From assembly GCF_005876955.1 (NCBI RefSeq), contig NZ_SSCL01000024.1, forward strand, positions 1-36,415: DNA of 36,415 nt, in the 5' to 3' direction. Position numbers and translations under genes: made by a program. This document shows positions 18,818-33,702 of this stretch, piece by piece. Below the pieces are notes generated by a model that was given only the letters and a program-made list of their open reading frames with translations, did not search any database and was not told where the DNA came from. This stretch comes from Sinomonas gamaensis (GTDB lineage: Bacteria; Actinomycetota; Actinomycetes; Actinomycetales; Micrococcaceae). Each line of letters begins with the position of its first letter. Positions within the stretch are counted from its first letter, which is position 1.

Positions 18818-19277
18818 TTGTTCGTCTCCTTCAATGGGTTCTGGTCCTTCAATGGGTTCTGGCCTTCACTGAACGTGCGGCTGAAATGCAGCCGCTCGAC
18901 GATCGGCGCGTCGCCGAACTTGAACAGGTCGAACCGGGTCTCGGCCTCGATGGACCACGCGGCCCACGACGGGACGACGATCATGTCGCCCTTGCCCACG
19001 GTAGTCCTCTCGCCGTTGAGGACAAACGCGCCCTCGCCCTCGAACACCTGGTACACCGAGGAGCCGACCTCGCGGGTCGTGCGGGTCTGGACCCCGGCGC
19101 GGAGGCGGTGGAACTCGACGCGGATGGTCGGCATGACGTCCCCGCCCGTGGTCGGGTTCACGTAGCGGACCGCCGCCTGGCCCTGGCCTACAGTGCCGGG
19201 GTGGCCCTCGTCCTCGAGCGCGAGCTGCTCGGTCAGAGCCCGGTCGGTGTGCTCCCACCGGTACGCGCGGCTACTCC
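18814..19277 (-). pseudogene. Gentisate 1,2-dioxygenase, C-terminal remnant
   Basis: The reading from about 19266 down to 18814 matches the C-terminal cupin half of gentisate dioxygenases: AYRWEHTDRAL, then AAVRYVNPTTGGDVMPTIRVEFHRL, YQVFEGEGAF and VVPSWAAWSIEA. Full-length enzymes are around 350 residues or more; the N-terminal cupin, which binds the catalytic iron, is absent. Beyond about 19270 the frame continues into unrelated sequence that is antisense to a flavin hydroxylase fragment, so the gene was cut by a rearrangement. Its 3' end overlaps the hydrolase gene. An 18-bp tandem duplication lies near its end. Confidence 0.78.
18827..18862. repeat. 18-bp tandem duplication
   Basis: TCCTTCAATGGGTTCTGG occurs twice head to tail (18827-18844 and 18845-18862) near the 3' end of the dioxygenase remnant. 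It duplicates six residues in frame, giving NPLKDQNPLKE. Exact copies suggest a recent slip. Confidence 0.9.
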
Positions 19278-19279
19278 TG

Positions 19280-19642
19280 GAGAAGTGGGTCGACGGCAAC
19301 GTCACCCTCCTCGGCGATCTGGTGAGCCGGCACGTCGTCGGAACAGACGACGACGGCGAGCGCCTCGAGGCGTGGGCCCGCGCCTTGCGCGAGTACAACG
19401 AGATCCGGGAACCGCGGACGAGCCGGGTCCAGACGACCGCTCGGGTGTGGGGCGAGTCCTGGCATCTGGACGAGCCAGTGGCTCTATGGGCGCGAGAGCG
19501 GCTGAGACGGCGTCGCCCTTTTGGGTTAAGGAACCTTCCGCGTCAAGAGGCCGGTGAGTCGAACAGTACTGATTCGATCGCCGCGGGTTGGGTATCACTT
19601 GACCGTGGACTTCATGGCACGCGCATTGATTGTCTGCCCTGA
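19280..19642 (+). pseudogene. Flavin-dependent aromatic hydroxylase fragment (3-hydroxybenzoate 6-hydroxylase-like)
   Basis: On the plus strand the reading EKWVDGNVTLLGD from 19280 resembles the strand before the second FAD motif of 3-hydroxybenzoate 6-hydroxylases. The following DAAHP region and the next helix are missing. It then resumes with LREYNEIREPRTSRVQTTARVWGESWHLD, the conserved C-terminal part. Neither an N-terminal FAD domain nor a start is present. Homology fades near 19510 and an in-frame stop is at 19640. It lies head to head with the gentisate dioxygenase remnant; the hydroxylase would make gentisate, so both belong to one former pathway. The family call rests on remembered motifs. 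Confidence 0.6.
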
Positions 19643-19833
19643 GGCGCCCTAGCCAGCGCTGGACGCCTATGGCATCGTGGGACCACGCTGGATATTCCGT
19701 TCGCATTCGGCGCCGGCCCAAATAAAAAAGCGGTCCGCTCGCACTCTACCGGGCCGCATCACAGCTTCCGAGGAAACCAGAAACCCGGAGCTTCAATATC
19801 ATATAACGACCTTGTCACGGATGGAGGCTAACC
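19643..19833. other. Non-coding region before the gas vesicle operon
   Basis: No convincing gene. An AT-rich patch at 19795-19808 contains TATAAC (19802-19807), a possible -10 about 25 bases before the first gas vesicle start, but no matching -35 is visible at 16-19 bp; a GGAAAC at 19772-19777 could suit an alternative sigma factor. This must hold the operon promoter unless transcription enters from further upstream. Confidence 0.4.
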
Positions 19834-20775
19834 GTGAATGGAAGGGCGCAATTAGCCGTTGTTCTTCTCGGCGGCTACCTGCTTGGCAGGACCAAGAAGA
19901 TGAAGCTTGCGATCACGGTGGCAAGCGCCATCGGCGGCAAGCAGCTTCTCAACAATCGACAGGACCTCGTGAGCAGGGCCACCAAGGTCCTTGATTCCTC
20001 GCCCGAGGCCAAACAACTCGTCAATCAGGTGACCGGCACGCTCGTGCAGGCTGCCCGGGGCGCAGCGCTCACTGCGGCCTCGAAGGGCGTCAGCTCGCTG
20101 AGCGACAACCTCCAGGGCCGTGCCGAAAAGCTTCGTGCCCCGAAGGAAGCGGTCGGCAAAGCCGGGGACAAGGCGGCGCAGGCCGGAGGCCAGGCGACCG
20201 AGACGGCCGGCAAGGCCACGGGGTCCGCCGGAAAGACCGCCGGGAGATTGGCCGGTCCCGCCGTCGGGCTTCTTCGGAGGAAGCGGCGTAGCAGGTCCGA
20301 AGAGGAGGAGCCCGAGGAAAGGACTCCACGGGACGAGGAGACTCGCTCCCAGGACGAGGACCAGGACGAGGGCTACGAGGACGAAGACCACGGCGAGGAC
20401 TACGCCGAGGATGAAGGTCACGCCGAAGACGAGGACTACGAAGACTACGAAGACGAGGAGCCCGAAGGCGAAGAGTCCGAGGGTGAGGACTACGAGGACG
20501 AGGAAGAGCCTCAGGACGAGGACGAAGAGGAGCAGCCTCGGGACGAGGAACGCAGGCCCGAGCGCCAGGCCGACCGTCAGCCCCGACGAGAGCCGGCTGG
20601 CCGCTCCGGCGGAGAGTCGGGTCGCTCGTCGGGCGGCGAGAAGTCCAGCCAGCGGCCGGCGCGGCAGCGCCCGGCAGCCCCGCGCCCAGGCGGCCCCGAG
20701 CGCCGCAGTTCAAGCAGTTCCGAGCGCCGTCAGGCTCCGTCCGGACGTCCGAGCAGGAAGCCCACGTCCGAATAG
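19834..20775 (+). CDS. Gas vesicle cluster protein, GvpY-like, with charged disordered tail
   Basis: A 313-residue protein. Residues 5-33 contain a glycine-rich hydrophobic segment and GYLLGRTKKMKLAIT, which matches the N-terminus of the protein called GvpY in Streptomyces gas vesicle clusters as I recall it. Residues 40-150 are helical and alanine-rich. Residues 153-245 are extremely acidic (runs of Glu, Asp and Tyr such as DYEDYEDEE), and 246-313 are Arg/Ser/Pro-rich, so the last half should be disordered with separate negative and positive blocks. The GTG start has GGAGG six bases upstream. The next gene follows 15 bases on. Function unknown; a role in vesicle clustering or wall contact is only a guess. 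Confidence 0.75.
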   Translation: MNGRAQLAVVLLGGYLLGRTKKMKLAITVASAIGGKQLLNNRQDLVSRATKVLDSSPEAKQLVNQVTGTLVQAARGAALTAASKGVSSLSDNLQGRAEKLRAPKEAVGKAGDKAAQAGGQATETAGKATGSAGKTAGRLAGPAVGLLRRKRRSRSEEEEPEERTPRDEETRSQDEDQDEGYEDEDHGEDYAEDEGHAEDEDYEDYEDEEPEGEESEGEDYEDEEEPQDEDEEEQPRDEERRPERQADRQPRREPAGRSGGESGRSSGGEKSSQRPARQRPAAPRPGGPERRSSSSSERRQAPSGRPSRKPTSE

Positions 20776-20790
20776 CCCAGGAGGCATGTC

Positions 20791-22122
20791 ATGGCCGAAA
20801 ACGCAACCACAGAACCGGCTTCTGAAACCAAAGAATCGGGCTCCCTCACCGACAAGCTCGGCCTGGGCGGCCTGAAGGAGGCCGCCGGAAGCTATGCCGG
20901 GTCCCTCCTGAGCAACGGGCTCGGCAAGGTCACCGACTCGGTCGAGGGCCTGAGCGGGAAGCTGAACGACTTCGCCGAAGGCAAGGTCTCGGTCAAGGAC
21001 AAGGCCAAGGTGGGGGGCCTGAAGTCGAAGCTCCAAGGCAAGAATCCCGTTCTCGGGGCCGTGGGCGGTGCCCTCGGCGGCGTCACGGACAAGGTGAAGG
21101 ACACCCTCAAGTCGGGAGTCGAGGCCGTGACCGGCGGCGGCAAGAAAGGCCGGGGCAGCCGGAAGCAGAAGCTCGTCAATATCGTCGAATGGGCCGATGT
21201 GGGCGTTCCCGTCAAGGTCGCCTACAACCAGTGGACCGAATTCGAGCAGTGGTCCGACTTCATGAAGAAGGTCAAGAACGTCGAATACGACAAGGACAAA
21301 GGAAAGGTCTCGTTCAAAGGCCAGGTATTCCTGTCCCACCGCACCTGGGAATCCCAGATCAAGGAGATGGTCCCGGATACGCGGATCATCTGGAAGTCGA
21401 AGGGCCCTAAAGGCCACATGGACGGTGCGGTCACATTCCATGAATATGGTCCAGAGCTGACCAAGATCTGCGCCATCGTGGAGTACTACCCGCAGGGGCT
21501 CTTCGAGAAGACCGGGCAGATCTGGCGCGCGGTGGGCCGCCGCGTCCGCGTAGAGCTCAAGCGCTACGTGCGCCATGTCATGACCTACAGCATCCTCAAC
21601 CCGGAAGAGGTTGTGGGATGGCGGGGCGAGATCCGCGACGGCGAGATCGTCCGCACCCACGAGGAGGTCGTGGAGGAAGAGCAGCGCGAGGAAGAGGAAG
21701 CCCAGCGCCAGCGCGAGGAACAGGGCCAGGGTCAGGATCAGGGCGAAGAAGACTACGAGGACTACGACGAGGAGGAAGACGAGGAGGGGCGGTCCCCAGA
21801 GGATGAGGGCTCCGAAGAGGAGACCTCCGACGAGTACGACGACGAGGACGAGGATTCCGAGGCGGTGGCCGCCGACGAGGAGTCCGACGAGTACGACAAC
21901 GAGGACGAGGACGAGGACTCCGAGGAGGGGACCTCCGACGAGTACGACGAGTACGACGACGAAGAACCCAACGAGGAGGAAGAGGGCGAAGAGGAAGAGG
22001 GCGAGGCGTCCGACGAATACGAGGACGAGGAGCCCGAGGAAGAAAGCCGTGAGGGCAACGGCCAGAGGCGCGCCGGCGGAAGCCGCCGCTCGCCGTCGTC
22101 GTCCGGCCGAGGCCGACGGTGA
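20791..22122 (+). CDS. Gas vesicle cluster protein, GvpZ-like SRPBCC protein with acidic tail
   Basis: A 443-residue protein in three parts. Residues 18-125 are a low-complexity Gly/Lys/Ala region. Residues 130-262 form an SRPBCC (START-like) domain with DVGVPVKVAYNQWTEFEQWSDFM, FHEYGPELTKI and VEYYPQGLFEKTG, closely like the SRPBCC protein (GvpZ) of Streptomyces gas vesicle clusters. Residues 291-425 are a Glu/Asp/Tyr-rich tail. SRPBCC domains bind hydrophobic ligands, so chaperoning hydrophobic GvpA is an attractive but unproven role. AGGAGG lies seven bases before ATG. The DNA for the tail is strongly repetitive (21746-22040, GAGGACGAG units). Confidence 0.78.
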   Translation: MAENATTEPASETKESGSLTDKLGLGGLKEAAGSYAGSLLSNGLGKVTDSVEGLSGKLNDFAEGKVSVKDKAKVGGLKSKLQGKNPVLGAVGGALGGVTDKVKDTLKSGVEAVTGGGKKGRGSRKQKLVNIVEWADVGVPVKVAYNQWTEFEQWSDFMKKVKNVEYDKDKGKVSFKGQVFLSHRTWESQIKEMVPDTRIIWKSKGPKGHMDGAVTFHEYGPELTKICAIVEYYPQGLFEKTGQIWRAVGRRVRVELKRYVRHVMTYSILNPEEVVGWRGEIRDGEIVRTHEEVVEEEQREEEEAQRQREEQGQGQDQGEEDYEDYDEEEDEEGRSPEDEGSEEETSDEYDDEDEDSEAVAADEESDEYDNEDEDEDSEEGTSDEYDEYDDEEPNEEEEGEEEEGEASDEYEDEEPEEESREGNGQRRAGGSRRSPSSSGRGRR

Positions 22123-22180
22123 GGGGCCCGTTCACGGGGCTACAGCGCCGCGCGCGAGAAAGAGGCCGAACGTCCATCTC

Positions 22181-22197
22181 GCTCAGCACGTCTGAGC
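22181..22197 (+). other. Small hairpin upstream of gvpA
   Basis: GCTCAG (22181-22186) and CTGAGC (22192-22197) form perfect arms around five bases in the 136-base gap before gvpA. It may be an mRNA processing or stability element that lets gvpA accumulate over upstream cistrons. The rest of the gap shows no clear promoter. Confidence 0.4.
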
Positions 22198-22258
22198 ACA
22201 ACACTGAGCCCAACAGCAGGAACGCTGCCAGGAGCAACGCGACAGTTAGGAGCGGATC

Positions 22259-22666
22259 ATGAGTACGGCTATGCAGCCGCGTGGGGGCTACTTGGACCGT
22301 CCCCACTCGAGTTCTCTTGCCGACGTCCTGAACGTCATCCTCGACAAGGGTCTCGTCATCGACGCGTACATCCGCGTCTCACTCGTGGGAATCGAAGTCC
22401 TCACGATTGATGCCCGCATCGTCATCGCCAGCGTCGACACCTACCTGCGCTTCGCGGAGGCGACCAACCGGCTTGACCTCGCCAGCCAGGGCGGAAAGGG
22501 CCTCCCAGACATGATCGATGACATGCGCGAGGGCGGCTCGCGCAGCAAGACCAAAGGCGTGATCGGCGGGGTGAAGGATGCCATCAGCGGTGGCAGGGAC
22601 AACGATGAGGACGAGGACGACAAGGAAGAGGCGAGGGCGCCACGCCGTCGGCGTGAAGACAAGTAG
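22259..22666 (+). CDS. gvpA: Gas vesicle major structural protein GvpA
   Basis: A 135-residue protein with the canonical GvpA core at residues 18-70: [20 protein letters not shown], then [20 protein letters not shown] and [11 protein letters not shown]. GvpA monomers form the ribbed hydrophobic shell of the gas vesicle. The core is followed by a 65-residue extension, lysine- and aspartate-rich and ending [10 protein letters not shown], longer than cyanobacterial GvpA but similar to actinobacterial versions. GTTAGGAG is a good ribosome site. The separate 5' region fits stronger expression than the genes upstream. I see no second plain GvpA in the window. Confidence 0.95.
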
Positions 22667-22681
22667 ACGAAGGGAGTGACT

Positions 22682-23407
22682 GTGAGCCTCTATGTGTACG
22701 GAATCGTCCCGGAGGGTTCGGAGGTCCCCGATCTCGACGGCCTGCAGGGCCAGATGGTGACGACGCTGCCGGCGGAAGGCCATGCCGCCATCGTCTCCCG
22801 GGTGGAAGACGAGGAGGCGCTCGGGACTCCCGACGACCTCGTGGCGCACAGTGCCGTCTTGGACCGCATCGCGGCCGACGTGCCGGTCCTCCCCATGGTC
22901 TTCGGAACGGTGGTCCCGGACGAGGAGACCCTCGTCGAGGAGGTCCTGGTGAGCCGCCATGGCTTGTACGCCGAGAGCCTGCGGAGGGTCGAGGACGCAG
23001 TGCAGTTCTCGCTGCGCGCGCGTTTCGTCCGTGACGAGGTGCTCGGCGAGCTCATCGCCGAGCAGCCGGAGATCGCGGCGCTCCGCGAGGCGATCGCCGG
23101 AACCGGAGAGGACGAGACCCGCGACGAGCGGATCAGGCTGGGCGAGCTGGTCGTCCAAGGCCTCCAGCGGAAGGCCGCGGAGGAGGCGCCCCGCATCCGC
23201 GCGGCGCTCGAGCCGCTCGCCCGTGAGCTCGTGGAGCGCGAGGCGTCCCAGGCAGAGGACGTCATCGAGCTCGCCGCCCTCGTGGACCGGGACCGTCAGG
23301 ACGACTTCGAGCAGGCCGCCGAGGAACTCGCGCGGGAGGGTGCCGGGCGGATCACGTTCCGGCTCCTCGGGCCGCAAGCGCCCTACGATTTCACCGGCAG
23401 CTTCTGA
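22682..23407 (+). CDS. gvpF: Gas vesicle protein GvpF (GvpF/L family)
   Basis: A GvpF/L family protein of 241 residues. It starts MSLYVYGIVPEG, the family's first strand, has VLPMVFGTVVPDEETLVEE in the middle and ends FRLLGPQAPYDFTGSF, the conserved C-terminal motif. GvpF binds GvpA and is thought to help start assembly. GTG 22682 is preferred because GGGAG lies six bases before it; GTG 22676 in the same frame is too near that site. The stop overlaps gvpG (TGATG). Confidence 0.92.
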   Translation: MSLYVYGIVPEGSEVPDLDGLQGQMVTTLPAEGHAAIVSRVEDEEALGTPDDLVAHSAVLDRIAADVPVLPMVFGTVVPDEETLVEEVLVSRHGLYAESLRRVEDAVQFSLRARFVRDEVLGELIAEQPEIAALREAIAGTGEDETRDERIRLGELVVQGLQRKAAEEAPRIRAALEPLARELVEREASQAEDVIELAALVDRDRQDDFEQAAEELAREGAGRITFRLLGPQAPYDFTGSF

Positions 23408-23658
23408 TGGGACTCTTCTCAGCTGTCTTCGGCCTCCCCCTCGCACCCGTGCGAGGGGTGGTCTGGGTCGCGGAGCGACTTCAGGAGGAAGCCGAGCGGC
23501 AGTACTACGACCCGGGGCTGATCCGGCGCCAGCTGGAGGAGGTCGCACAGGCACGCGCTGAGGGGACCCTATCCGACGAGGACGCAGGGAAGCTTGAGCG
23601 CGAGCTGGTCGCCAGGATGCTCGAGGGCAGCCGGCGTCAGCGGAGGGAGGGGTACTGA
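23407..23658 (+). CDS. gvpG: Gas vesicle protein GvpG
   Basis: An 83-residue protein with the GvpG pattern: MGLFSAVFGLPLAPVRGVVWVAERLQEEAERQ followed by a charged helical region. The GLPLAP-RG and hydrophobic helix are the family hallmark. It is a small accessory assembly protein. Its ATG overlaps the gvpF stop, so the two are coupled, as in other actinobacterial clusters. Confidence 0.92.
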   Translation: MGLFSAVFGLPLAPVRGVVWVAERLQEEAERQYYDPGLIRRQLEEVAQARAEGTLSDEDAGKLERELVARMLEGSRRQRREGY

Positions 23659-23660
23659 TC

Positions 23661-24170
23661 GTGGCAGACGAGGAGGAGCGTGCGCCGGTACGGCGCCGCC
23701 CGCCCGAAGAACGAACGACCTCGCGCGAACGCCCCGCTGCTCGCGAGCGCCCGGCTACCCGCGAGCGCCCCCCAGCGCGGGAACGGCCTGCGCCCCGGGA
23801 GCGGGACGACCGGCCAGAGCGGGACGACCGGCGGGAGCGGGACGACCGGCCCGAGCGGGAAGAGCGGCCCGAGCGGGACGAGCGGCCTGAACGCGAAGAG
23901 CGGCCGAAGAAGCTCAGCTCGACCCGGCTCGCGCAGCTGGCGGTCTCCCACCTGAAGGCGCTCACGACCCGAGACATCGAGGCCGTGGTCGGCATGTCCC
24001 GGAAGGACGACGGGAACCTCGTGGTGATCCTCGAGGTTGTGGAGAACCATCATTTCCCGGACTCGGCCGACATCATGGCCGAATACTCGGTGGAAGTGGA
24101 CCCGGACGGGGAGCTGGTGGGCTACTCCCGTGGGCCCCGCTATCTCCGGGGGCGCCCGGGCGACAAGTAG
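23661..24170 (+). CDS. gvpO: Gas vesicle protein GvpO with Arg/Glu repeat N-terminus
   Basis: A 169-residue protein. Residues 85-169 are the GvpO domain: LAVSHLKALTTRDIEAVVG, VVILEVVENHHFPDSADIMA and a final YSRGPRYLRG. Residues 15-82 are a mixed-charge region made of repeated RERP, RERDDRP and REERP units. GvpO is required for vesicle formation in haloarchaea and actinobacteria, with an unclear role. The GTG start is two bases after the gvpG stop with GGGAGGGG upstream. The repeated N-terminus is probably disordered. Confidence 0.88.
   Translation: MADEEERAPVRRRPPEERTTSRERPAARERPATRERPPARERPAPRERDDRPERDDRRERDDRPEREERPERDERPEREERPKKLSSTRLAQLAVSHLKALTTRDIEAVVGMSRKDDGNLVVILEVVENHHFPDSADIMAEYSVEVDPDGELVGYSRGPRYLRGRPGDK
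23796..23906 (+). repeat. 15-bp tandem repeats coding the GvpO charged region
   Basis: About seven imperfect copies of a 15-base unit resembling GAGCGGGACGACCGG encode five-residue ERDDR/EREER units. Such arrays change copy number easily, so this segment may vary between strains. Confidence 0.8.
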
Positions 24171-24236
24171 GCACCGGGCCACAACAAGCAGCACACGTGA
24201 GATTGGAGCGGGCATCGACAATCAGGCGGAGATCTG

Positions 24237-24875
24237 ATGAGCACCGAAAGCGAACACCCCGACCCCGGGCCCTCAGCTGAGGGGCAGTCCGGGCGGGGTG
24301 GGCGTGCGTCTCAGGCACCCCGCGAGGCGGCCCGCTCCGACGTGGTTCCCTACTCCGCCCGTGGCGCCTCCGCCCGCCCGGCCGGAGCCGGCGGAATGTC
24401 CCCCGGGGGAATGCCGCCCGGCTCGCCACTCATGCCTCAGCGCAGCCGCGAGGGAACTCTCACCCACATTATCGAGACGCTGCTCGACAAGGGCCTCGTC
24501 ATCAACGCGGACATCACCGTCTCGCTCGCCGGCGTCGAACTCCTGGGCATCCGCGTCCGCGCCGCGCTCGCCTCGTTCGATACCGCGGCCCGCTACGGGC
24601 TCGACTTTCCGTCCGGCACGGACCGCAACACGGTCGCGTGGAACGAGGCCTCCGAGCGGAAGGACACCTGCCCACAATGCGGCAAGATGGCACCGGTCGA
24701 TCAGCTCCTCTACGAGTTCTGCCCGTGGTGCGGCTGGCGGAGCGCGATCGCGATCGCGCAGTCCGACGGCGGACGCTCACCAGACAGCGGTGGGTCCCCT
24801 GAGCCCGAGCGGGCGCGCGAGAGCGAGGGCGAGGACGGCGGCGATGCGGGAACCGCCGAGGAGGCCCGGGAATGA
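24237..24875 (+). CDS. gvpJ: GvpA/GvpJ-family protein with C-terminal zinc ribbon
   Basis: A 212-residue protein in four parts: a disordered Gly/Pro/Ser N-terminus (1-68), a GvpA/J core at 72-122 (LTHIIETLLDKGLVINADIT, SLAGVELLGIRVRAALASFDTA), a short linker, and a zinc ribbon at 143-167 with CPQC and CPWC, that is C145-x2-C148 and C162-x2-C165. The tail is acidic. The core marks it as a minor shell protein of the J/S type; the symbol is assigned on core similarity and position only. The zinc ribbon could bind a partner or nucleic acid. GGCGGAG precedes the ATG. The stop overlaps the next gene. Confidence 0.8.
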   Translation: MSTESEHPDPGPSAEGQSGRGGRASQAPREAARSDVVPYSARGASARPAGAGGMSPGGMPPGSPLMPQRSREGTLTHIIETLLDKGLVINADITVSLAGVELLGIRVRAALASFDTAARYGLDFPSGTDRNTVAWNEASERKDTCPQCGKMAPVDQLLYEFCPWCGWRSAIAIAQSDGGRSPDSGGSPEPERARESEGEDGGDAGTAEEARE

Positions 24876-25885
24876 CGGAGCTGCGCGAGCCCGAGGGGAC
24901 GGCCTCTCGGGAGGCAACCAGGCCGTCGTCGTCCGCGCGCGCCCTCACGCCTACGCGGGATCGCGAGGCGACGCTCGCCGCGCTTGTGGATTCGCTCCTG
25001 AACAAGGGCGTGTACCTCGATCTCGACGCCGTGATCACGGTCGCCGGAATCCCGCTCATCGGGCTGAGCCTCCGCGCCGCCCTCGCGGGGATGGAGACCC
25101 TGCTCGAGTACGGCATGTTCGAGGATTGGGACGAGCGGACACGCGCGTGGGCGCGCCGGCTCGCGCCAGCCGGACTGGACTTGGCCGACGACGAGGAGAT
25201 CGTCGCGCGGATGCCCGGCGCCTATCGTCTGGACCTCACCCCGCCCGTCTGGCAGCCCGGCACCGTCTTCCTGACGGACCGGCGGCTGCTCGTCTACCGC
25301 AGCGAGCCCGCAGCGATGCTCTGGCAGGCTCCGCGTGCGCGCGTCACCCACGTGGGGAAGGTGTCCGAGCGCGGGGTCGGCGGCAAGGACGTTCCACGCC
25401 TCCTCGTGACGACGGACGACGGCGGCCTCGCTCACCTCACTGCCGCGCGGCCCGATCGGCTGCGGAATCTGCTCCTCCGGGGGCTGCGGGGTGCGTCTTC
25501 CGCGGTCGCTGACGTGCGGGCCAGCGACCTGTCGTCCGCCGAGGCAGCAGGCACTGAAGAGGCGACCGAGCAAGAGGACGCTGAGCTCTGGGTCGTGGAG
25601 CGGCGGGCGTCGGGGTCCGCGTGGCGGCGGGGCGAGGGCCGCATCGACGACGACGGATTCCATTGGAAGGGCGACGGTGACCGGCGGCCAGCGGTGCGGA
25701 TCGCGCCATCGGACGTTCTCGAGATCCGCCGGGGGGAGCGGGAAGGCGAGCCGGAAGGCCTGCTGGCGTTCGTCGTCGTCACCCCCGACGGGGAGACGCG
25801 CTTCGCGGCTGCGCCCGCCGCGGACTGGCAAGCGCGGCTGCAGAAGATGGCGACTGGGCACGCTGCCGGCGGGGAGGCGAAGTGA
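24872..25885 (+). CDS. GvpA/S-like domain fused to GRAM/PH-like domains
   Basis: A 337-residue protein. Residues 32-82 are a diverged GvpA/J/S core (LAALVDSLLNKGVYLDLDAV, TVAGIPLIGLSLRAALAGMETLLEYG). Residues 108-200 look like a GRAM/PH domain: EEIVARMPGAYRL, then the telling GTVFLTDRRLLVYRS strand pair and a basic loop. Residues 238-326 look like a second PH-like barrel. By position it corresponds to gvpS or a second gvpJ of Streptomyces clusters. GRAM/PH domains bind lipids or proteins, so it may link a shell cap to the membrane. The ATG overlaps the previous stop and the stop overlaps gvpK. Domain calls beyond the core are by eye. Confidence 0.7.
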   Translation: MTELREPEGTASREATRPSSSARALTPTRDREATLAALVDSLLNKGVYLDLDAVITVAGIPLIGLSLRAALAGMETLLEYGMFEDWDERTRAWARRLAPAGLDLADDEEIVARMPGAYRLDLTPPVWQPGTVFLTDRRLLVYRSEPAAMLWQAPRARVTHVGKVSERGVGGKDVPRLLVTTDDGGLAHLTAARPDRLRNLLLRGLRGASSAVADVRASDLSSAEAAGTEEATEQEDAELWVVERRASGSAWRRGEGRIDDDGFHWKGDGDRRPAVRIAPSDVLEIRRGEREGEPEGLLAFVVVTPDGETRFAAAPAADWQARLQKMATGHAAGGEAK

Positions 25886-26175
25886 TGAGCACGCTCAAGA
25901 TCGATGAAGACAACCTCACGGCGGGGCTCCTGACCCTCGTGGTCACGCTCGTCGAGATCATCCAAGAGGCGCTCGAGACACAGGCGGTCCGGCGGATCGA
26001 GGGTGGGACGCTCACGGCCGAGGAGCAGGAGCGGCTCGGCAACGCCCTGCTTCAGCTGGACGAGGCCATGGCCCAGCTCAAACTGGACCACGGGATCGCC
26101 GATTCCGTCGCGGAGCTGCGCCGCGGGTTGGACGACATCGTCGCCGACCTCGTTGAAAAGGTGACGAATCCATGA
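25885..26175 (+). CDS. gvpK: Gas vesicle protein GvpK
   Basis: A 96-residue protein matching GvpK: NLTAGLLTLVVTLVEIIQEALETQAVRRIEGG, then LTAEEQERLGNALLQLDEAM and a C-terminal DDIVADLVE. It is a conserved accessory assembly protein. ATG 25885 has GGGGAGG seven bases upstream and overlaps the preceding stop; GTG 25882 is possible. The stop overlaps gvpL. Confidence 0.93.
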   Translation: MSTLKIDEDNLTAGLLTLVVTLVEIIQEALETQAVRRIEGGTLTAEEQERLGNALLQLDEAMAQLKLDHGIADSVAELRRGLDDIVADLVEKVTNP

Positions 26176-26975
26176 GCGCGGGCGGGGAACTGGACGGCCT
26201 GTACGTCTACGCGGTAGTGCCCGCGGACTTCGATGCGGCCGGGCTCGGGACGGGGATCGACGGCGCACTCCTCGAGCTCGTTTCCGCGGAGGGTGTGGCC
26301 GCGGTCGTGCATCGCCACTCGTCGTCGCCCTACAGCGGCGACGACGAGGAGGCCCAGCGCCGCGTACTCGAGCACGGGGACGTTGTCGAGCGGTGCTGGG
26401 ACCACCGGCGCAGTGTGCTCCCCATGGGGTTCAACGTCATCGTGGCGCCCGGGCCGGACGAGACCGCCGAGGAGCGGCTCGTCGCCTGGCTGGCCGACTC
26501 GGCCCACGTCCTCTCCGAGCGGCTCGCTGCGCTCGCGGGGCTCGTGGAGCTGCGGGTGGAGATCTCGCTCGACGAGCGGGTGGCCGCGGAGCAGAGCGAG
26601 GACGTCCACGCGCTCGAGGCCGAGCTCCGCGAGCGCCCCCCCGGCGTCCAGCGGCTCCTGCAGCGCCGCCTCACGGCTCTCCGGGAACGTGCCGCCGAGC
26701 GGCTCGCGGACCGGCTCTACCCAGAGTTCCGGCGCCGGCTCGCCGCACTCTCCACCGACCTCGCTGAGAACGTCCGCGGCCATCCCCCGGCCGGGTGCGT
26801 GACCGTGCTCAACGTCGCGGTGCTCGCGCGCGAACAGGACATCCCGCGGATCGGCGCGGAACTCGGGGACATCGAGCTCGAGGAGCCTGCCGCGCGAGTG
26901 ACCTTCCTTGGGCCCTGGCCTCCGTTCTCCTTCGCCGACGTGCCCCACTCGCCGTCGGTAGAGTGGACTGCATGA
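26172..26975 (+). CDS. gvpL: Gas vesicle protein GvpL (GvpF/L family)
   Basis: A 267-residue second GvpF/L paralogue: DGLYVYAVVPADF at the N-terminus, VLPMGFNVIVAPGPDETAEERL in the middle, and FLGPWPPFSFADV as the conserved C-terminal motif. It is expected to interact with other Gvp proteins in assembly. Its ATG overlaps the gvpK stop, and its stop overlaps the start of the Rieske ferredoxin gene, which ties that gene to the operon. Confidence 0.92.
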   Translation: MSAGGELDGLYVYAVVPADFDAAGLGTGIDGALLELVSAEGVAAVVHRHSSSPYSGDDEEAQRRVLEHGDVVERCWDHRRSVLPMGFNVIVAPGPDETAEERLVAWLADSAHVLSERLAALAGLVELRVEISLDERVAAEQSEDVHALEAELRERPPGVQRLLQRRLTALRERAAERLADRLYPEFRRRLAALSTDLAENVRGHPPAGCVTVLNVAVLAREQDIPRIGAELGDIELEEPAARVTFLGPWPPFSFADVPHSPSVEWTA

Positions 26976-27343
26976 GTGACGGAATCGACGTCGGCAGCCC
27001 GGAGGAAATCGAGGAGGGAACCGCGCGGATCGTAGAGCCCGAGGAGTCGGGCTTCGACGAGCCGATCGCCGTCTTCCACACGGAAACCGGCTGTTTCTTC
27101 GCGCTCAACGACATCTGCACGCACGAGGAGGCCTCCCTCGCGGAGGGCTGGATCGAGGGCGAGACGGTCGAGTGCCCGCTGCATTCCTCGAGCTTCGACC
27201 TGCGCTCCGGCAAAGTCCTCGGCCTGCCAGCCACTGAGGACGCGCGCACTCACAGGGTCGAGGTCGAGGACGGCAGGATTGTCCTCTACCCCGGTCGCGA
27301 CGCTGAGCAGGCCGTGCGGCCCAGCGGTCCGTCGGCTGGCTGA
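26972..27343 (+). CDS. Rieske-type [2Fe-2S] ferredoxin
   Basis: A 123-residue small Rieske protein. The cluster ligands are C49-x-H51 (DICTHEEA) and C68-x2-H71 (CPLHSSSFD). The overall pattern fits the ferredoxins of non-heme oxygenases (bphF/mocE type) that carry electrons from a reductase to a terminal oxygenase. There is no oxygenase gene nearby. Its ATG overlaps the gvpL stop (ATGA) and its stop overlaps the reductase start (TGATG). A longer in-frame reading inside gvpL exists but is not favoured. Confidence 0.88.
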   Translation: MSDGIDVGSPEEIEEGTARIVEPEESGFDEPIAVFHTETGCFFALNDICTHEEASLAEGWIEGETVECPLHSSSFDLRSGKVLGLPATEDARTHRVEVEDGRIVLYPGRDAEQAVRPSGPSAG

Positions 27344-28560
27344 TGCCGCTCCGCCGCATCCTTGTGGTGGGCGGCGGGGTCGCGGGATTCAGTGCCGTGC
27401 GCGAGCTGCGCGAGCGCGGGTACGACGGCGAGCTCACGCTCCTCTCCCCGGAAGGCCTCCCCTACGACCGCCCGCCGCTCAGCAAGGGCTACCTCCTCGG
27501 CACCGAGGACGCCCAGAAGATCCGCCTCGTCCCGGAAGCCTGGTACGCCGAGCACGGCGTGGGGCTCGTGCCCGAGCGGGCTTCTGCCCTGCGCCCTTCC
27601 GAGGGGGCCGTTGAGCTCTCCGGCGGCCGACTTGTTCCGGCCGACCGGGTCCTGTTGGCCACCGGCAGCACGCCGCGTCGCCTCGGCGTAGCGGGCGGTG
27701 ATACTGCGCTGACCTTGCGAACCCGCGCCGATGCCGACGCGCTTCGGACCGCTCTCGCACCCGGCGCGCGGGTCGCCGTCGTCGGTGCCGGGCTCATCGG
27801 CTCGGAAGTCGCCTCAGCTGCGGTCGTCCTCGGTGCAGAGGCGACGCTCATCGATCCCGTGGTTCCGCCCCTCGTCCCCGCCGTGGGCCGCGCCCTCGCC
27901 GAGCGGCTGCAGGGGATGCATGCAGAGCGGGGCGTGCGGACTTCGGTGTCGGTTCCGGTCGAGATCACTGACGACGGCGGTCGCCGGCTCGTGCGGCTTG
28001 CCGACGGTTCTGCCGTGGAAGCCGACGTGGTGGTGGCGGGGATCGGCGTGGTGCCCGAGACGTCCCTGGCCGAGAAGTCCGGGCTTGCGGCCGACGACGG
28101 GATTCTCGTGGACGCTGCTGGCACCACCTCGAATCCGGCCGTCTTCGCCGCCGGCGACGCCACGCGCCTCCGACGCCCGGACGGGACTCTCGCCCGACGC
28201 TCGGAGCACTGGGAGGCCGCTGTCCGGTCAGGTCAGGCGGCCGCCGCGGGGCTCCTCGGGGAGGCACCCCCGACGTTCGGTGCGCCCTGGTTCTGGTCGG
28301 ACCGGCACGGGGTGCACGTCGAGGCGGTCGGGACGCTCGACGAGCGACAGGCGCCGGATGGCCGCACCGTGGTGCGCTTCGTTGACGGCGTCCCTCAGGC
28401 CGCGTTCCTCCTCGCCGCCGACGGTCGCCTTCTCGGATGCGCCGTCGTCGATCTCCCGCTCATGGTGCGGGCCGCCCGCCGCATCATCGACCGCGGACTC
28501 GTCCCGGACCCCGCCGCCCTCTCGGACCCGTCGGCCGACCCGCGGAAGCTCGCCCGCTAG
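27343..28560 (+). CDS. FAD-dependent ferredoxin reductase
   Basis: A 405-residue pyridine nucleotide-disulfide family reductase of the oxygenase-coupled type. The FAD motif GGGVAG is at 10-15, YDRPPLSKGYL at 41-51, the NAD motif GAGLIG at 148-153 and the second FAD motif VFAAGDATR near 264-272. The C-terminal domain fits BphA4/PdR-like reductases. It should pass electrons from NADH to the Rieske protein encoded just upstream, with which it overlaps. It is the last gene of the run and converges on gntK with 21 bases between; I see no clear terminator there. Confidence 0.9.
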   Translation: MPLRRILVVGGGVAGFSAVRELRERGYDGELTLLSPEGLPYDRPPLSKGYLLGTEDAQKIRLVPEAWYAEHGVGLVPERASALRPSEGAVELSGGRLVPADRVLLATGSTPRRLGVAGGDTALTLRTRADADALRTALAPGARVAVVGAGLIGSEVASAAVVLGAEATLIDPVVPPLVPAVGRALAERLQGMHAERGVRTSVSVPVEITDDGGRRLVRLADGSAVEADVVVAGIGVVPETSLAEKSGLAADDGILVDAAGTTSNPAVFAAGDATRLRRPDGTLARRSEHWEAAVRSGQAAAAGLLGEAPPTFGAPWFWSDRHGVHVEAVGTLDERQAPDGRTVVRFVDGVPQAAFLLAADGRLLGCAVVDLPLMVRAARRIIDRGLVPDPAALSDPSADPRKLAR

Positions 28561-28581
28561 CAACCCCTGGCCACGTCTGTA

Positions 28582-29103
28582 TCAGGCAGCCGTGAGGTGC
28601 AGCCCCGCCACGATCGTGTCGACAATGCCCTGGGGCGCCTGCGAAATGTCGAGCCTCAGATGACCACGGGAAAGCTCCTCCTCGGTCAGCGGCTCGAGTG
28701 TGGCGAGCTGGCTGGGCAGCAGGCCGGTGGGCATGAAGTGCCCCGACCGCGAAGCCATGCGCTCGGCGAGCAGTTCGGGGGTGCCGTCGAGGTGCGCGAA
28801 GACCACGCGGCCGTCAGCCTGGGCGAGCAGATCGCGATAGCTCCGCTTGAGCGCCGAGCAGGTGAGCACCGTGCTCCGGCCCGCGGCCGCCTGCTCGCTC
28901 ATCCAGTCGCGGATGCTGGCGAGCCACGGCCAGCGATCATCGTCGGTGAGGGGGACGCCGCTGGCCATCTTGTCGATGTTCGGCTGGGGATGGAACTCGT
29001 CGGCCTCGGCGAGCGTCCAGCCGAGCCGCTCGGCGAGTGCGGCGGACACGGTCGTCTTGCCGGCCCCGGCAACGCCCATGACCACGACATGCAGGGATTC
29101 CAC
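28582..29103 (-). CDS. gntK: Gluconate kinase
   Basis: A 173-residue gluconokinase of the small P-loop type. The Walker A motif GVAGAGKTT is at 10-18, EADEFHP near 33-39, NIDKMASGVPLTDDDRWPWL near 42-61 and CSALKRSYRDLL near 82-93, all family signatures. It makes 6-phosphogluconate from gluconate in the cytoplasm. The GTG start has CGGAGG six bases upstream. It diverges from a GntR regulator. No permease gene is adjacent. Confidence 0.93.
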   Translation of the reverse strand: MESLHVVVMGVAGAGKTTVSAALAERLGWTLAEADEFHPQPNIDKMASGVPLTDDDRWPWLASIRDWMSEQAAAGRSTVLTCSALKRSYRDLLAQADGRVVFAHLDGTPELLAERMASRSGHFMPTGLLPSQLATLEPLTEEELSRGHLRLDISQAPQGIVDTIVAGLHLTAA

Positions 29104-29193
29104 TTGCTACCTCCGCAGAAGACGTCATTGGCTTCGTGAGAAGCACTCCCTCAAAGATAGCACCATTGCGTGGGATAGGTCATACTTTTCGTC
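29104..29193. promoter_or_regulatory. Divergent control region of gntK and the GntR regulator
   Basis: This 90-base gap must carry both promoters. AGGTCATACTT at 29177-29187 is a partly symmetric match to FadR-subfamily operators (pattern GT-n3-AC) and lies just before the regulator start, suiting autoregulation. No clear -35/-10 pair stands out. Confidence 0.35.
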
Positions 29194-29913
29194 ATGATGG
29201 CGCAACAGAACGACAAGGGCGAGTCGGGGGCCGGGCGACTCCACCGGAGAATGCTCGATGCAGTGGGCGAAGCCATCGCGTCTGGGCGCTACGAGCCCGG
29301 TTACCGCCTGACTCTCGACGCGCTCCAGCGCGAGTTCGGTGTCTCCCGCACGGTCGCCCGGGACACGATGCGCGTCCTCGAGACGATGAACCTCGTGACG
29401 TCGCGCCGGCGGGTCGGGATCGTGGTCCAAGACCCGGCGCAATGGAACGTCTACGACCCCCAGCTCGTCCGCTGGCGCCTGACGTCCCCGCGCCGCGATG
29501 AGCAGTATGCCTCGCTCACTGAGTTGCGCATCGCCGTCGAACCTCTTGCCGCCGCCGGCGCGGCCCGACGCGCGAGCGCGACCCAGCGGATTGAGCTCAC
29601 GCGACTGGCGGCCGACCTCCGGCGCCTGGGCGAGTCGGGCGATCTGGACGCCTTCCTCGACGCCGACATTGCCTTCCACCGGCTCATCCTGAGCAGCAGC
29701 GGCAATGAGATGTTCGCCGCCCTCGAAGGAATGGTGGCCGAGGTCCTCACGAGCCGAACCCGGCAAGGGCGCATGCCCTTTCACCCGCGCGACGAGGCGC
29801 TCGACGCCCACGAACGCGCGGCCGCGGCGATCGCTCGAGGTGACGCGAACGACGCCGAAGCCTCCGCCCGCGAGATCCTCCACGAGGTTCGCGGCGCCCT
29901 CAACCTCAGCTGA
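29194..29913 (+). CDS. GntR-family (FadR subfamily) transcriptional regulator
   Basis: A 239-residue regulator. The N-terminal winged helix covers about 15-80, with LTLDALQREFGVSRTVARDTMRVLE as the HTH and SRRRVGIVVQ as the wing. The C-terminal FCD domain has metal-binding positions D161 and H165 in DADIAFHRLIL and later histidines. Divergence from gntK suggests that it senses gluconate or a phosphate of it. Start is ATG 29194 or 29197. Its 3' end is followed by a hairpin and repeat cluster. Confidence 0.9.
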   Translation: MMAQQNDKGESGAGRLHRRMLDAVGEAIASGRYEPGYRLTLDALQREFGVSRTVARDTMRVLETMNLVTSRRRVGIVVQDPAQWNVYDPQLVRWRLTSPRRDEQYASLTELRIAVEPLAAAGAARRASATQRIELTRLAADLRRLGESGDLDAFLDADIAFHRLILSSSGNEMFAALEGMVAEVLTSRTRQGRMPFHPRDEALDAHERAAAAIARGDANDAEASAREILHEVRGALNLS

Positions 29914-29947
29914 TTCTGCTGAGCGCGCCGTAGGGCCCCACCCCACC

Positions 29948-30124
29948 CGCTTCGGGTACAGATACTGCACCCGGCCGGCAACTCAGGTACACCAACTGAC
30001 CCGCACGACGACGGAGGGCGCCCTTCGCTGGAAAGGCGCCCTCCGTCGTCGTACCCGAGATGGCTCCAGGACTGATGATCTGTACCCGAAACGGTGAGGG
30101 AGGCGAAGATCTGTACCCGAAACT
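29948..30124. repeat. TCGGGTAC repeat cluster between convergent genes
   Basis: An A-type unit on the plus strand (29948-29965, TTCGGGTACAGATAC) is followed by a diverged B unit (about 29981-30001, CAGGTACACCAACTGACC), then a strong hairpin, then a core GTACCCGAGA at 30051-30060, and two A units on the minus strand (30077-30093 and 30107-30122). The last one touches the stop codon of the DUF3151 gene. Confidence 0.75.
30005..30052. terminator. 18-bp hairpin, bidirectional terminator
   Basis: Arms 30005-30022 and 30035-30052 pair perfectly over 18 bases around a 12-base loop. The stem starts ACGACGACGGAGGGC. It lies between convergent genes (GntR regulator and DUF3151) and inside the repeat cluster, so probably ends transcription from both sides. 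Confidence 0.85.
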
Positions 30125-30546
30125 CAGAGAGCCTCGATCGCCGCCTTCGCGGCCGGGTCGGACTCGTTGAGGAACGTCGAGATCCGCTCGGGCTCGCCTT
30201 CCTCGCCGATGGCCGCGGCCGCACGGCCGAGGTCGTACAGCGCGCGCAGGAAGCCCTGGTTCGGCTCGTGCTCCCACGGCACCGGACCGGCCCCGCGCCA
30301 GCCGTTGCGGCGCAGGGCGTCCAGTCCGCGGTGGTACCCCACGCGGGCGAACGCGTACGACTCGACGGTCTCGCCCGCGGCCCAGGCCTCCTCGGAAAGC
30401 AGGGCCCAGAGCAGCGAGGACTCGGGATGCTTCACGACAAGGTCACGCGGGGAATGCCCCGTCGCGAGGCCCTGGTACACCTCGGCCTCGGCCGGGAGCC
30501 GCGTCGGCTCGGGGCCGAGGAGGTTGGTGCGGAATTCGTCGCTCAC
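30124..30546 (-). CDS. DUF3151 domain protein
   Basis: A 140-residue protein with NLLGPEPTRLPAEAEVYQGLATGHSPRDLV at the N-terminus and HPESSLLWALLSEEAWAAGE, FARVGYHRGLDALRRNGWRG and VPWEHEPNQGFLRALYDLGRAA, which I recognise as DUF3151. The family is actinobacterial and usually next to fructose-bisphosphate aldolase; its role is unknown. The GTG start at 30546 overlaps the fba stop. Longer in-frame readings upstream lie inside fba and were not used. Confidence 0.85.
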   Translation of the reverse strand: MSDEFRTNLLGPEPTRLPAEAEVYQGLATGHSPRDLVVKHPESSLLWALLSEEAWAAGETVESYAFARVGYHRGLDALRRNGWRGAGPVPWEHEPNQGFLRALYDLGRAAAAIGEEGEPERISTFLNESDPAAKAAIEAL

Positions 30547-31565
30547 TTGATCGACTTGCCCTCGGAACCGAGCTGCTGCGCGGCCTCGACGACGCGCGCC
30601 GCCATGCCACCCTCGGCCGAGGCGCCCCACACCCGCGGGTCGTAGGTCTTCTTGTTGCCGACCTCGCCGTCGACCTTGAGGACGCCGTCGTAGTTCTTGA
30701 ACATGTGGCCGGCCACGGGACGCGTGAACGCGTACTGGGTGTCCGTGTCGATGTTCATCTTGATGACACCGAAGGAGACGGCGTCCGCGATCTCCTGCTC
30801 GCTCGAGCCCGAGCCGCCGTGGAACACGAGGTCGAACGGCTGATCCTTGCCGACCTTGGCGCCGACCTCGGCCTGGATGTCCTTGAGGATCTCGGGGCGC
30901 AGCTTGACATTGCCCGGCTTGTAGACGCCGTGGACGTTGCCGAACGTGAGGGCCGTGATGTAGCGGCCGTTCTCGCCGGTGCCGAGCGCCTCGACCGTCG
31001 CGAGGCCGTCCGCCGCGGTCGTGTAGAGCTTCTCGTTGATGGCGTTCTCGACGCCGTCCTCCTCGCCGCCGACCGTGCCGATCTCGATCTCGAGGATCAT
31101 CTTCGCAGCGGAGGTGCGGGCCAAGAGGTCCTTCGCGATGCGGAGGTTCTCCTCGAGCGTCTCGGCGGAGCCGTCCCACATGTGCGAGTTGAACAGCGGG
31201 TTCCGGCCCGCCTTGACCTCGGCCTCGGAGGCGGCGAGGAGCGGCAGCACGAACGTGTCGAGCTTGTCCTTCGGGCAGTGGTCGGTGTGGAGGGCGATGT
31301 TGACGTCGTAGTTCTTCGCGACCTCGCGGGCGAACGCCGCGAAGCCGAGCGAACCGGCGACCATGTCCTTGACGGAGGCGCCGGACCAGTAGGCGGCGCC
31401 GCCCGTGGAAACCTGGACGATGCCGTCGGAGCCGGCCTCCGCGAAGCCGCGGATCGCCGCGTTGAGCGTCTGGGACGAGGTGACGTTGACCGCCGGGAAT
31501 GCGTAGCCGCCGTTCTTGGCGGAGTCGATCATCTCGGCGTACTTCTCAGGGGTGGCGATAGGCAT
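30543..31565 (-). CDS. fbaA: Class II fructose-bisphosphate aldolase
   Basis: A 340-residue zinc-dependent aldolase of glycolysis and gluconeogenesis that splits or forms fructose 1,6-bisphosphate. It starts MPIATPEKYAEMIDSAKNGG and has the zinc-site motif ALHTDHCPK, the EIEIGTVGGEEDG segment, FGNVHGVY with another zinc histidine, and HGGSGSS for phosphate binding. ATG 31565 has GGAG five bases upstream. A longer in-frame reading to 31628 lacks homology. It is cotranscribed with DUF3151. Confidence 0.95.
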   Translation of the reverse strand: MPIATPEKYAEMIDSAKNGGYAFPAVNVTSSQTLNAAIRGFAEAGSDGIVQVSTGGAAYWSGASVKDMVAGSLGFAAFAREVAKNYDVNIALHTDHCPKDKLDTFVLPLLAASEAEVKAGRNPLFNSHMWDGSAETLEENLRIAKDLLARTSAAKMILEIEIGTVGGEEDGVENAINEKLYTTAADGLATVEALGTGENGRYITALTFGNVHGVYKPGNVKLRPEILKDIQAEVGAKVGKDQPFDLVFHGGSGSSEQEIADAVSFGVIKMNIDTDTQYAFTRPVAGHMFKNYDGVLKVDGEVGNKKTYDPRVWGASAEGGMAARVVEAAQQLGSEGKSIK

Positions 31566-31672
31566 GGAATCTCCTCGATTCAGGTCCGTGCGGCAGGGAA
31601 CTGCTCGGCGGTGTGCTGGCCACTTCACATCCTAGCGATCGGCGTCGCGCCGGGCTTCCCCGCCCAACAGAT

Positions 31673-31707
31673 GACGACGACGGCGGGAGCCTCCCGCCGT
31701 CGTCGTC
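31673..31707 (-). terminator. 17-bp hairpin terminator after the S53 peptidase gene
   Basis: Arms 31673-31689 and 31691-31707 are perfect reverse complements with almost no loop, 16 bases past the peptidase stop. The stem carries GACGACGACGGCGGGAG. There is no T tract, as is common in high-GC terminators. Confidence 0.85.
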
Positions 31708-31722
31708 CGCTGTGATGCTGAG

Positions 31723-33702
31723 CTAATGCTGAGCTGCGACCTGCTGCGCGAAGGCCTCGGTCATGCTTCCGACGCCGGTGACGTCGTCGTAGCCGGACGT
31801 GGCCACCAGCGACGTGTCGAGGCCGAGCGTCGCCACGTATGTCTGGCCGGGGTAGGCGCGGGCGAGGTTGATCGCGTGGGCGGGGCTGGTCACGTCGCGC
31901 ATCGCTGCGGTCGGCGCCGCCGCGGCCTGGTAGACCGCCGGGTTCGCGAAGCCGATCCGCTTGCTGGCGGCCGCCTGTGCGCTCGCCATGAGGCCTGCGG
32001 TGAGCGGGCACGCCAGCGAGGTGCCGCCGATGCGGAGCTCGCTGTAGGAGCCGGAGTTCAGGGAGTGGTCATTCGTGATCGGGCTGTAGCCGATCTTGAA
32101 TCCGGTCCAGACGTCGGCGAGCGCCGAGACGTCTGGCGAGACGCGCTTTCCGCCCGCGAGCGCAGCCGGCACCAGCGCGGCTTGGTACGCGGGCTGGTCG
32201 AAGGCGGCGCTGCGGCCGCCGCCTGCACCGTACTGGAAGACGCCGGGCAGCGGCCCCGCGTAGGCGAGGGACCCGTCAGACTGGGTCACGATGGCCTGAC
32301 GCGTGGTGCCCCACGCGGTCTCCCAGAGGTAGTTGTTGGAGGCACCGAGCGCAAGGCTCGTGCCGCCGACCGAAGTGACGAACGGCGAGCTCGCCGGGAA
32401 GTCGGGCGAGGTGTAGCCGAGGGCAGCCTTCTCGTCGCCGCTGTCGCCGCTGGAGAAGTAGAGGCCGATTCCCTCGGCCGCGGCCTGCAGATGGTTGTTC
32501 TGCTCGCCGAGGAGGACGTCGGAGGGAACTGCTTCCCCGACGTAGCCGTAGCTGTTGCTCACGACCGTCGCAAGCTGGCCGTCGAGGACCTTCGACATCG
32601 CGAGGTCGAGGCCGCCGCCGCAGTTGGAGCCGCCGACGTAGAGGATGTTGGCGCCGGGGGCCGTGCTGTGGACCGCTTCGACGTCGAGCGCCTCTTCGCC
32701 CTGCCACCCGCTGGGCTGGCCGCAGAGCGCTTGATCGTAGTAGACGGGGGGCAGGAGTTCGCGGTACGAGGTGGAGGTCAGCGCCGGGAGTCCGTGGAGC
32801 GACGCGTACTGGTTGGCGTCCTGCGCCATGGTCGGGGCGGCGTACGCGTCGATGATGGCGACGGTCTGGCCGGTGCCCGCCGTCGTGTTCATGGCGACGC
32901 CGTTGCCAAGGCCGTAGGCGGCCTGGATCTGGCCCGGGGTGTAGCCGCAGAGGACGGTCGGGACCGAGGTTGCGCCGGTCTCCGTGGGCGGGACCGCGAC
33001 TTCTTTCTGGTCCCAGTATTCAGAGCACGGCGTCGCGACGGGCGGCGGGGCCGTCTTCGCCGCCGGCTGCGCGTCGCCGCCGTCGACGACGTTGTCCGGG
33101 CGGGTGAGCATCCGGCCTTGGTCGATGCTCACGGCTGAGACGGAGGCCGCGATGTCGCCCGGGAGCGTGGGAGCCCGGTCGGGGCCGATGAGGCTCTGGC
33201 CCTCGAAGGAATACGTCTGCTCCGAAACCTGGAAGGCGTTGTTGAACTGGCTCACGGTGCCGCGGAACACCACGTACTGGCCGCTGTCGGGGACGCCTGT
33301 GACGACCATGCCTTGCGCCTGGAGCCAGTTGACCACCGCATCAGTGTCCGCTGGGGCGGGCGCGAAGCGGGACTTCCACTGGGCGAAGCTCAGGAACTGG
33401 CCGTACTGGGGGCTCCCAGGCGTGGAGACCGCCGTCGCCAACGCCTTCGCGCCCGCCTCATCCCGGAGGCCGAGGTAGATCTCGCCCTCGATCGTGGTGT
33501 TGCTGAGGGGTATGCCGGTCTTCGCCCGGGATCCCGCCCACGGCGGGACCGAGCCTGGATAGGCGGTGGATTTCGACGGCGGAGGGCTGGGCGGGGCTGC
33601 GACGGCCACAGCGGCGGTGCCCAATCCCGCGACGCAGGCCAAGGCGGTTGCGGCCGCAGCAGCACGCAGTGAATGTCGACGAGAAGCCAAATGAATGCCC
33701 AT
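31723..33702 (-). CDS. Secreted S53 family peptidase (sedolisin/kumamolisin type) with propeptide
   Basis: A 659-residue serine-carboxyl peptidase. Residues 1-36 are a signal peptide (MGIHLASRRH, hydrophobic stretch, then AVAVAAPP). Residues 55-200 form the pro-kumamolisin activation domain. Catalytic residues in the family pattern are E336 and D340 (GEEALD), the oxyanion D420 (SSGDSG) and S562 (GGTSLACPL). A C-terminal DVTGVGS suits the calcium site. Such enzymes are secreted, self-activating and work best at acidic pH. ATG 33702 was chosen for the signal peptide and the GGAGAGGG upstream; the frame is open for 61 codons more. It stands alone, with a terminator after it. Confidence 0.9.
   Translation of the reverse strand: MGIHLASRRHSLRAAAAATALACVAGLGTAAVAVAAPPSPPPSKSTAYPGSVPPWAGSRAKTGIPLSNTTIEGEIYLGLRDEAGAKALATAVSTPGSPQYGQFLSFAQWKSRFAPAPADTDAVVNWLQAQGMVVTGVPDSGQYVVFRGTVSQFNNAFQVSEQTYSFEGQSLIGPDRAPTLPGDIAASVSAVSIDQGRMLTRPDNVVDGGDAQPAAKTAPPPVATPCSEYWDQKEVAVPPTETGATSVPTVLCGYTPGQIQAAYGLGNGVAMNTTAGTGQTVAIIDAYAAPTMAQDANQYASLHGLPALTSTSYRELLPPVYYDQALCGQPSGWQGEEALDVEAVHSTAPGANILYVGGSNCGGGLDLAMSKVLDGQLATVVSNSYGYVGEAVPSDVLLGEQNNHLQAAAEGIGLYFSSGDSGDEKAALGYTSPDFPASSPFVTSVGGTSLALGASNNYLWETAWGTTRQAIVTQSDGSLAYAGPLPGVFQYGAGGGRSAAFDQPAYQAALVPAALAGGKRVSPDVSALADVWTGFKIGYSPITNDHSLNSGSYSELRIGGTSLACPLTAGLMASAQAAASKRIGFANPAVYQAAAAPTAAMRDVTSPAHAINLARAYPGQTYVATLGLDTSLVATSGYDDVTGVGSMTEAFAQQVAAQH

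Follow-up and report, generated by a model that had tools for sequence, protein, structure and literature searches.

A Rieske ferredoxin and ferredoxin reductase gene pair abutting a Sinomonas gas vesicle cluster is kept independently of gas vesicles and likely has its own leaderless promoter

In Sinomonas gamaensis, the last gene of a gas vesicle cluster runs into the start codon of a Rieske ferredoxin gene, and this gene runs in turn into one for a ferredoxin reductase, raising the question of whether the two redox genes belong to the gas vesicle operon or have a function and promoter of their own. The window, meaning the whole stretch of DNA that we analysed, is an entire contig of 36,415 bases (G000:C17, with G000 denoting the window's genome), and contains the following features.

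22259-26175, + strand: remaining gas vesicle cluster, with gvpA-like, gvpF, gvpG, gvpO, two more GvpA-family genes and gvpK (Pfam)
26172-26975, + strand: gvpL, the last gas vesicle gene (PF06386, E 2e-47)
26959-26964, + strand: putative -10 box TAGAGT, inside gvpL (at -13 to -8 in 15 of 15 Sinomonas orthologues)
26972-27343, + strand: Rieske [2Fe-2S] ferredoxin, 123 aa (PF00355, E 3.5e-17)
27343-28560, + strand: FAD-dependent ferredoxin reductase, 405 aa (PF07992, E 8e-55; PF14759, E 5.5e-15)
28582-29103, - strand: gluconokinase gntK, a shared downstream neighbour (TIGR01313, above cut-off)
29194-29913, + strand: GntR/FCD-family regulator, a shared downstream neighbour (PF07729, PF00392)

Both stop-start overlaps described in an earlier sequence-only reading of this DNA are real by coordinates: the gvpL TGA (26973-26975) overlaps the Rieske ATG (26972-26974) as ATGA (26972-26975), and the Rieske TGA (27341-27343) has one base (27343) in common with the reductase ATG (27343-27345). 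The Rieske start codon occupies the same position in the orthologues of all 15 Sinomonas genomes, window's included, and the ATGA overlap is kept in all four genomes in which gvpL and the pair are joined. Bacterial genes often overlap by their stop and start codons in this way, so the gvpL/Rieske overlap is by itself unremarkable, and overlap alone is no proof of common function. A search of the + strand from 22000 to 29300 revealed nothing resembling a terminator; read-through from the gvp genes is therefore plausible, and transcription possibly runs on from them into the Rieske-reductase pair.

The two proteins are of a familiar type. The ferredoxin has the CxH and CxxH ligands of the Rieske family (CTH-x16-CPLH, from residue 49), and the reductase combines PF07992 and Reductase_C (PF14759) with the nucleotide-binding GxGxxG motifs GGGVAG and GAGLIG. 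The solved structures nearest to the Rieske protein are dioxygenase ferredoxins, that nearest to the reductase is the BphA4-type ferredoxin reductase 1d7y, and the nearest named structures for both are electron-transfer proteins of biphenyl, toluene, naphthalene and carbazole dioxygenases; in contrast to those systems, no terminal oxygenase is linked to the Sinomonas pair. Among NCBIfam models the best matches are HcaC and HcaD of 3-phenylpropionate/cinnamate dioxygenase, with which the pair shares its domains. However, the window ferredoxin falls below the equivalog cut-offs of PRK09965 (106 of 113 bits), HcaC (86 of 150 bits) and AndAb (77.4 of 150 bits), as does the reductase for the curated HcaD equivalog (273.3 of 450 bits), and the names HcaC and HcaD should therefore not be given to the pair. 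The Hca system also differs in that no alpha or beta oxygenase subunit is recognised beside the window's genes: the linked alpha (PF00848) and beta (PF00866) subunits that define a three-component ring-hydroxylating dioxygenase are absent among the window's ORFs around the pair. The absence of a terminal oxygenase from the window, proposed from the letters alone, was borne out for the 21 ORFs (17933-33138) run against Pfam, none of which matched an oxygenase family.

We then compared the distribution of the pair with that of gas vesicle genes. A Rieske orthologue is present in 15 of 15 Sinomonas genomes including the window's, the other 14 sharing 75-83% identity with the window's protein. A reductase homologue is likewise present in all 15 and adjoins the Rieske gene in 14 (13 others and the window), where the homologues are 68-77% identical to the window's. 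Only five of the 15 genomes contain gvpF, and only four (G000, G007, G013 and G014) have the joined gvpL-pair order; in S. albida (G001), two separate contigs carry gvp (contig 32) and the pair (contig 35). The Rieske orthologue is thus found in all ten gvpF-free Sinomonas genomes and is unlinked to gvp in an eleventh, S. albida. Rieske and reductase are themselves not always one unit. G006 (L068) has a Rieske gene with no adjoining reductase and a 56% reductase homologue about 26 kb off on the other strand, and a further Rieske gene of G014, located on a different contig (L063:9413-9772), stands alone: the 19.5 kb examined there contain no reductase match, and TACAGT precedes the ATG of this gene.

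A gvpF search at E 0.001 identified gas vesicle clusters in 16 of 295 Micrococcaceae genomes, all 16 of which were examined. These clusters have the same gene set as the cluster upstream of the window's pair, but the redox pair stands behind gvpL in only four, all Sinomonas, and in the other 12 no Rieske match was found (tblastn, E 1e-5) in at least 5.2 kb behind gvpL. The C-terminus of the window's GvpL is unlike those of the 12 unlinked GvpL proteins. Relatives of the Rieske protein occur at E 1e-12 in at least 233 of the 295 Micrococcaceae genomes, a rough guide that includes other ferredoxins. A class-wide gvpL search (E 1e-20) matched three of 394 genomes, the window's among them, and the other two add little, with no Rieske match found in 1.5 kb of flank.

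A gas vesicle operon gene would be expected to recur with related gvp clusters and to be absent where gvp is absent, and the pair does neither. In the sequence-only reading both redox genes appeared to be part of the gas vesicle operon; its account of the junction stands and read-through is plausible, but operon membership does not survive the finding of the pair away from gvp genes and of gvp clusters that lack it, the two observations which that reading had itself named as refuting. A redox partner for gas vesicles was accordingly rejected on distribution. It is very improbable that the pair works within the gas vesicle operon, supplying electrons for modification of a Gvp protein or sensing redox state or oxygen for buoyancy: the overlap kept in every joined genome and the lack of anything terminator-like between gvpL and the pair are compatible with such a role, but the ten gvpF-free genomes, the unlinked pair of S. 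albida and the 12 of 16 clusters with no pair behind gvpL, that of S. albida among them, argue against it. Of the three roles proposed earlier, this distribution disfavours Gvp modification and sensing, and service to an oxygenase encoded elsewhere is now preferred. In gvp loci of other genera we observed weak reductase-like matches about 7 kb behind gvpL (L080, 38%) and on the far side of the cluster (L085, 30%), with no Rieske match (E 1e-5) beside either. Literature titles and abstract openings, those on Sinomonas, Streptomyces and Arthrobacter included, yielded no link of gas vesicles with Rieske proteins or ferredoxin reductases, and PMC9956245, in excerpt, names gas vesicle and Rieske/ferredoxin reductase genes as separate genes. 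The pair is a known kind of electron-transfer set, kept in Sinomonas independently of gas vesicles.

How, then, did the two come to be joined? Two loci with no gvp genes (L001 and L002) have the order Rieske-reductase-gntK-gntR as in the window, and the stretch before the pair varies among Sinomonas species. G003 has a short-chain dehydrogenase (SDR) gene whose end lies 42 bases ahead of the Rieske ATG; in G014, G007 and G013, relatives of this gene (74-75%) are located upstream of the gvp cluster instead. Genes at the compared loci were called by a simple rule based on reading frames and GC3, with some errors; tblastn matches are the basis of the synteny statements. A tree of the aligned Rieske and reductase proteins (16 rows, 14 Sinomonas and two Bowdeniella; G006 and the extra G014 copy, having no adjacent reductase, were left out) grouped G007, G013 and G014 (0.999), put G000 in a group with G001 and G012, both unjoined (0.889), and set these six apart from the rest (0.962; eight of the nine other genomes are in the tree). 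The joined genomes thus do not form one clade, and the order of G000, G001 and G012 is left open. Because the four joined genomes share an identical joint, we provisionally assume that the junction arose once and that G001 and G012 later lost it, or that exchange took place. That the joined order is ancestral in Sinomonas, gvp having been lost elsewhere and not added upstream of the pair, is rather unlikely: the joined genomes fall into two groups of the tree, so that a single origin of the junction would make its loss from G001 and G012 likely, but the nine genomes outside the six-genome group contain no gvpF and the site upstream of the pair differs among species.

The sequence immediately before the Rieske gene suggests what has been held constant at this junction. 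The hexamer TAGAGT occupies positions -13 to -8, leaving seven bases to the ATG, in every one of the 15 Sinomonas orthologues, joined and unjoined alike, and no column between -60 and -14 is invariant among them. Joined and unjoined loci are 0.77 identical over -14 to -1 (shuffled mean 0.28, with none of 500 shuffles reaching 0.77), compared to 0.35 over -60 to -15, a slight excess over shuffled sequence (mean 0.32, sd 0.02, reached by 19 of 500). The likeness between joined and unjoined loci therefore stops just upstream of TAGAGT. G001 and G012, the unjoined genomes most closely related to the joined ones, show upstream identity to the joined loci at background level (0.28 and 0.27). Over P-S-V-E-W-T-A, the four joined genomes use identical codons, bar one third base in G013; elsewhere in gvpL, of the 156 conserved residues other than M and W, 60 have the same codon in all four.

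Similar hexamers precede other candidate starts in Sinomonas. Across 19 Sinomonas stretches, with the Rieske gene excluded, TANNNT stood six to seven bases before 11 of 490 candidate starts (nine at six, two at seven), against a background mean of 1.2 cases at each other spacing and one of 1,541 internal positions. By their first residues these 11 cases amount to about seven distinct genes, homologues included, and one of them, at 6736 of the window, falls within a predicted gene; their peak spacing is six, whereas that of the Rieske box is seven. A scan for E. coli-type promoters found none. In excerpts of the published work, TANNNT about 12 bases before the start is a mark of leaderless genes, frequent in Actinobacteria (Zheng 2011, PMC3160421), and M. 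tuberculosis start sites have TANNNT and no conserved -35 (Cortes 2013, PMC3898074). The Sinomonas box resembles the leaderless promoters of these excerpts in its TANNNT near the start, with its first T at -13 compared to about 12 reported, and in having no recognised -35 element; unlike them, it also encodes the C-terminus of the preceding gene's product. TAGAGT is thus most likely the -10 box of the pair's own leaderless promoter, as judged from its position and conservation. We consider it unlikely that the conserved TAGAGTGGA is instead a ribosome binding site or a regulator site. Its closeness to the ATG and a near-constant GGA at -7 to -5 (G at -7 in 14 of 15, G at -6 in 15 of 15, A at -5 in 13 of 15) would suit such a site, but the invariant part is TAGAGT, in which both T's are fixed and needless for a Shine-Dalgarno sequence, and the spacing of the box agrees with the leaderless promoters of the published excerpts.

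Taken together, these observations make it likely that we are dealing with an NADH-dependent reductase and Rieske ferredoxin pair that has no linked oxygenase, is expressed from a leaderless promoter of its own, and is abutted by the gvp cluster in some species. The FAD-containing ferredoxin reductase would take electrons from NADH and pass them to the Rieske ferredoxin. The pair resembles the electron-supply half of a ring-hydroxylating dioxygenase system of the HcaE/HcaC/HcaD type and most likely supplies oxygenases coded elsewhere, Rieske oxygenases, P450s or both. Transcription of the pair probably starts from TAGAGT and yields a leaderless mRNA. The gvp cluster of one group of Sinomonas species lies directly upstream of the box, where it would have been added if the rearrangement ran in that direction, and GvpL there would end in codons that belong to the promoter and start codon of the pair. 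Since the box is conserved and the likeness is lost upstream of it, the last residues of GvpL in the joined species appear to be encoded within the promoter of the pair itself. The overlap would then be a product of the junction and no sign of gas vesicle function, marking the place where the gvp cluster meets the promoter of an operon unrelated to it. What deserves mention here is the proposed double use of the box, as promoter and as coding sequence for the GvpL C-terminus, a compact case in which a conserved promoter box would also serve as the last codons of the preceding gene.

Several findings count against this explanation: no oxygenase family among those searched occurs with the pair throughout the 15 genomes, both proteins stay below the equivalog cut-offs, the two genes do not always form a unit, the joined genomes make up no single clade, the TANNNT peak of other candidate starts is at a different spacing from the Rieske box, and no promoter of E. 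coli type was found. In addition, the overlap is kept in four species although GvpF is only 71-72% identical to the window's, which leaves room for a benefit from coupling. Selection for read-through and translational coupling with gvpL in the joined species, on top of the pair's own function and promoter, is nonetheless improbable: it would fit the persistence of the overlap in four species and the lack of a terminator-like site between gvpL and the pair, but the box could by itself account for the fixed junction, as its bases are conserved in unjoined species too, and S. albida manages with no linkage. Somewhat less probable again is that the overlap is useful in that the pair is expressed from both the embedded leaderless promoter and coupling to gvpL, so that the electron supply of an oxygen-using enzyme would rise with the vesicles.

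The preferred explanation, a pair serving oxygenases coded elsewhere, agrees with the company kept by its relatives. Outside the genus, the closest named relatives among the matches found are those of Bowdeniella (60-61%), where locus L007 has the order oxygenase alpha subunit, ferredoxin, reductase, beta subunit (PF00866) and AMP-binding ligase. The alpha subunit has PF00848 with a Rieske domain and is HcaE-like, under the cut-off, and the ferredoxin of the Bowdeniella relative passes the PRK09965 cut-off (120.2 of 113 bits). An HcaE-like alpha subunit also precedes the pair in a Micrococcaceae locus (L098), the one locus tested out of 20.

Each of the 15 Sinomonas genomes matches PF00848, the P450 family PF00067 or both. 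G001, G013 and G014 have P450 matches and no PF00848, and G008 and G012 show the reverse. A genus-wide oxygenase partner was sought and rejected, as none of the three families occurs in all 15 genomes (PF00848 in 12, PF00067 in 13 and VanA_C, PF19112, in six). The electron acceptor may differ between species or belong to a family outside these three. In G013 and G014, the pair's reductase is the sole reductase homologue at E 1e-25. The window's genome has a sole PF00848 gene, located on contig 32; it is GbcA-like, under the cut-off, and has a ferredoxin and reductase of its own. Other Rieske proteins of this genome comprise a VanA_C oxygenase (L115), a DUF2231-Rieske protein (L116) and a DAO-Rieske fusion (L117); for a further Rieske match, L118, the chosen reading frame gave no family. 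The GbcA-like alpha subunit stands in a separate oxygenase cluster, at L064:6688-11096, with its own reductase, Rieske ferredoxin and a ProP-like transporter. The oxygenase-type ferredoxin and reductase are kept genus-wide with no linked oxygenase, and their acceptor could be sought.

The gas vesicle cluster itself has several further features. Before gvpA lies a Polyketide_cyc/SRPBCC protein with a long acidic tail (20791-22122), and 12 of the 15 other clusters have a relative of it next to gvp. A third GvpA-family protein (24872-25885) extends about 260 residues beyond a short Gas_vesicle domain, with no Pfam match in that extension. The GvpA-family protein at 24237-24875 has a C-terminal CPxC...CPWC zinc-ribbon-like motif, which is found in all 15 other gvp clusters examined.
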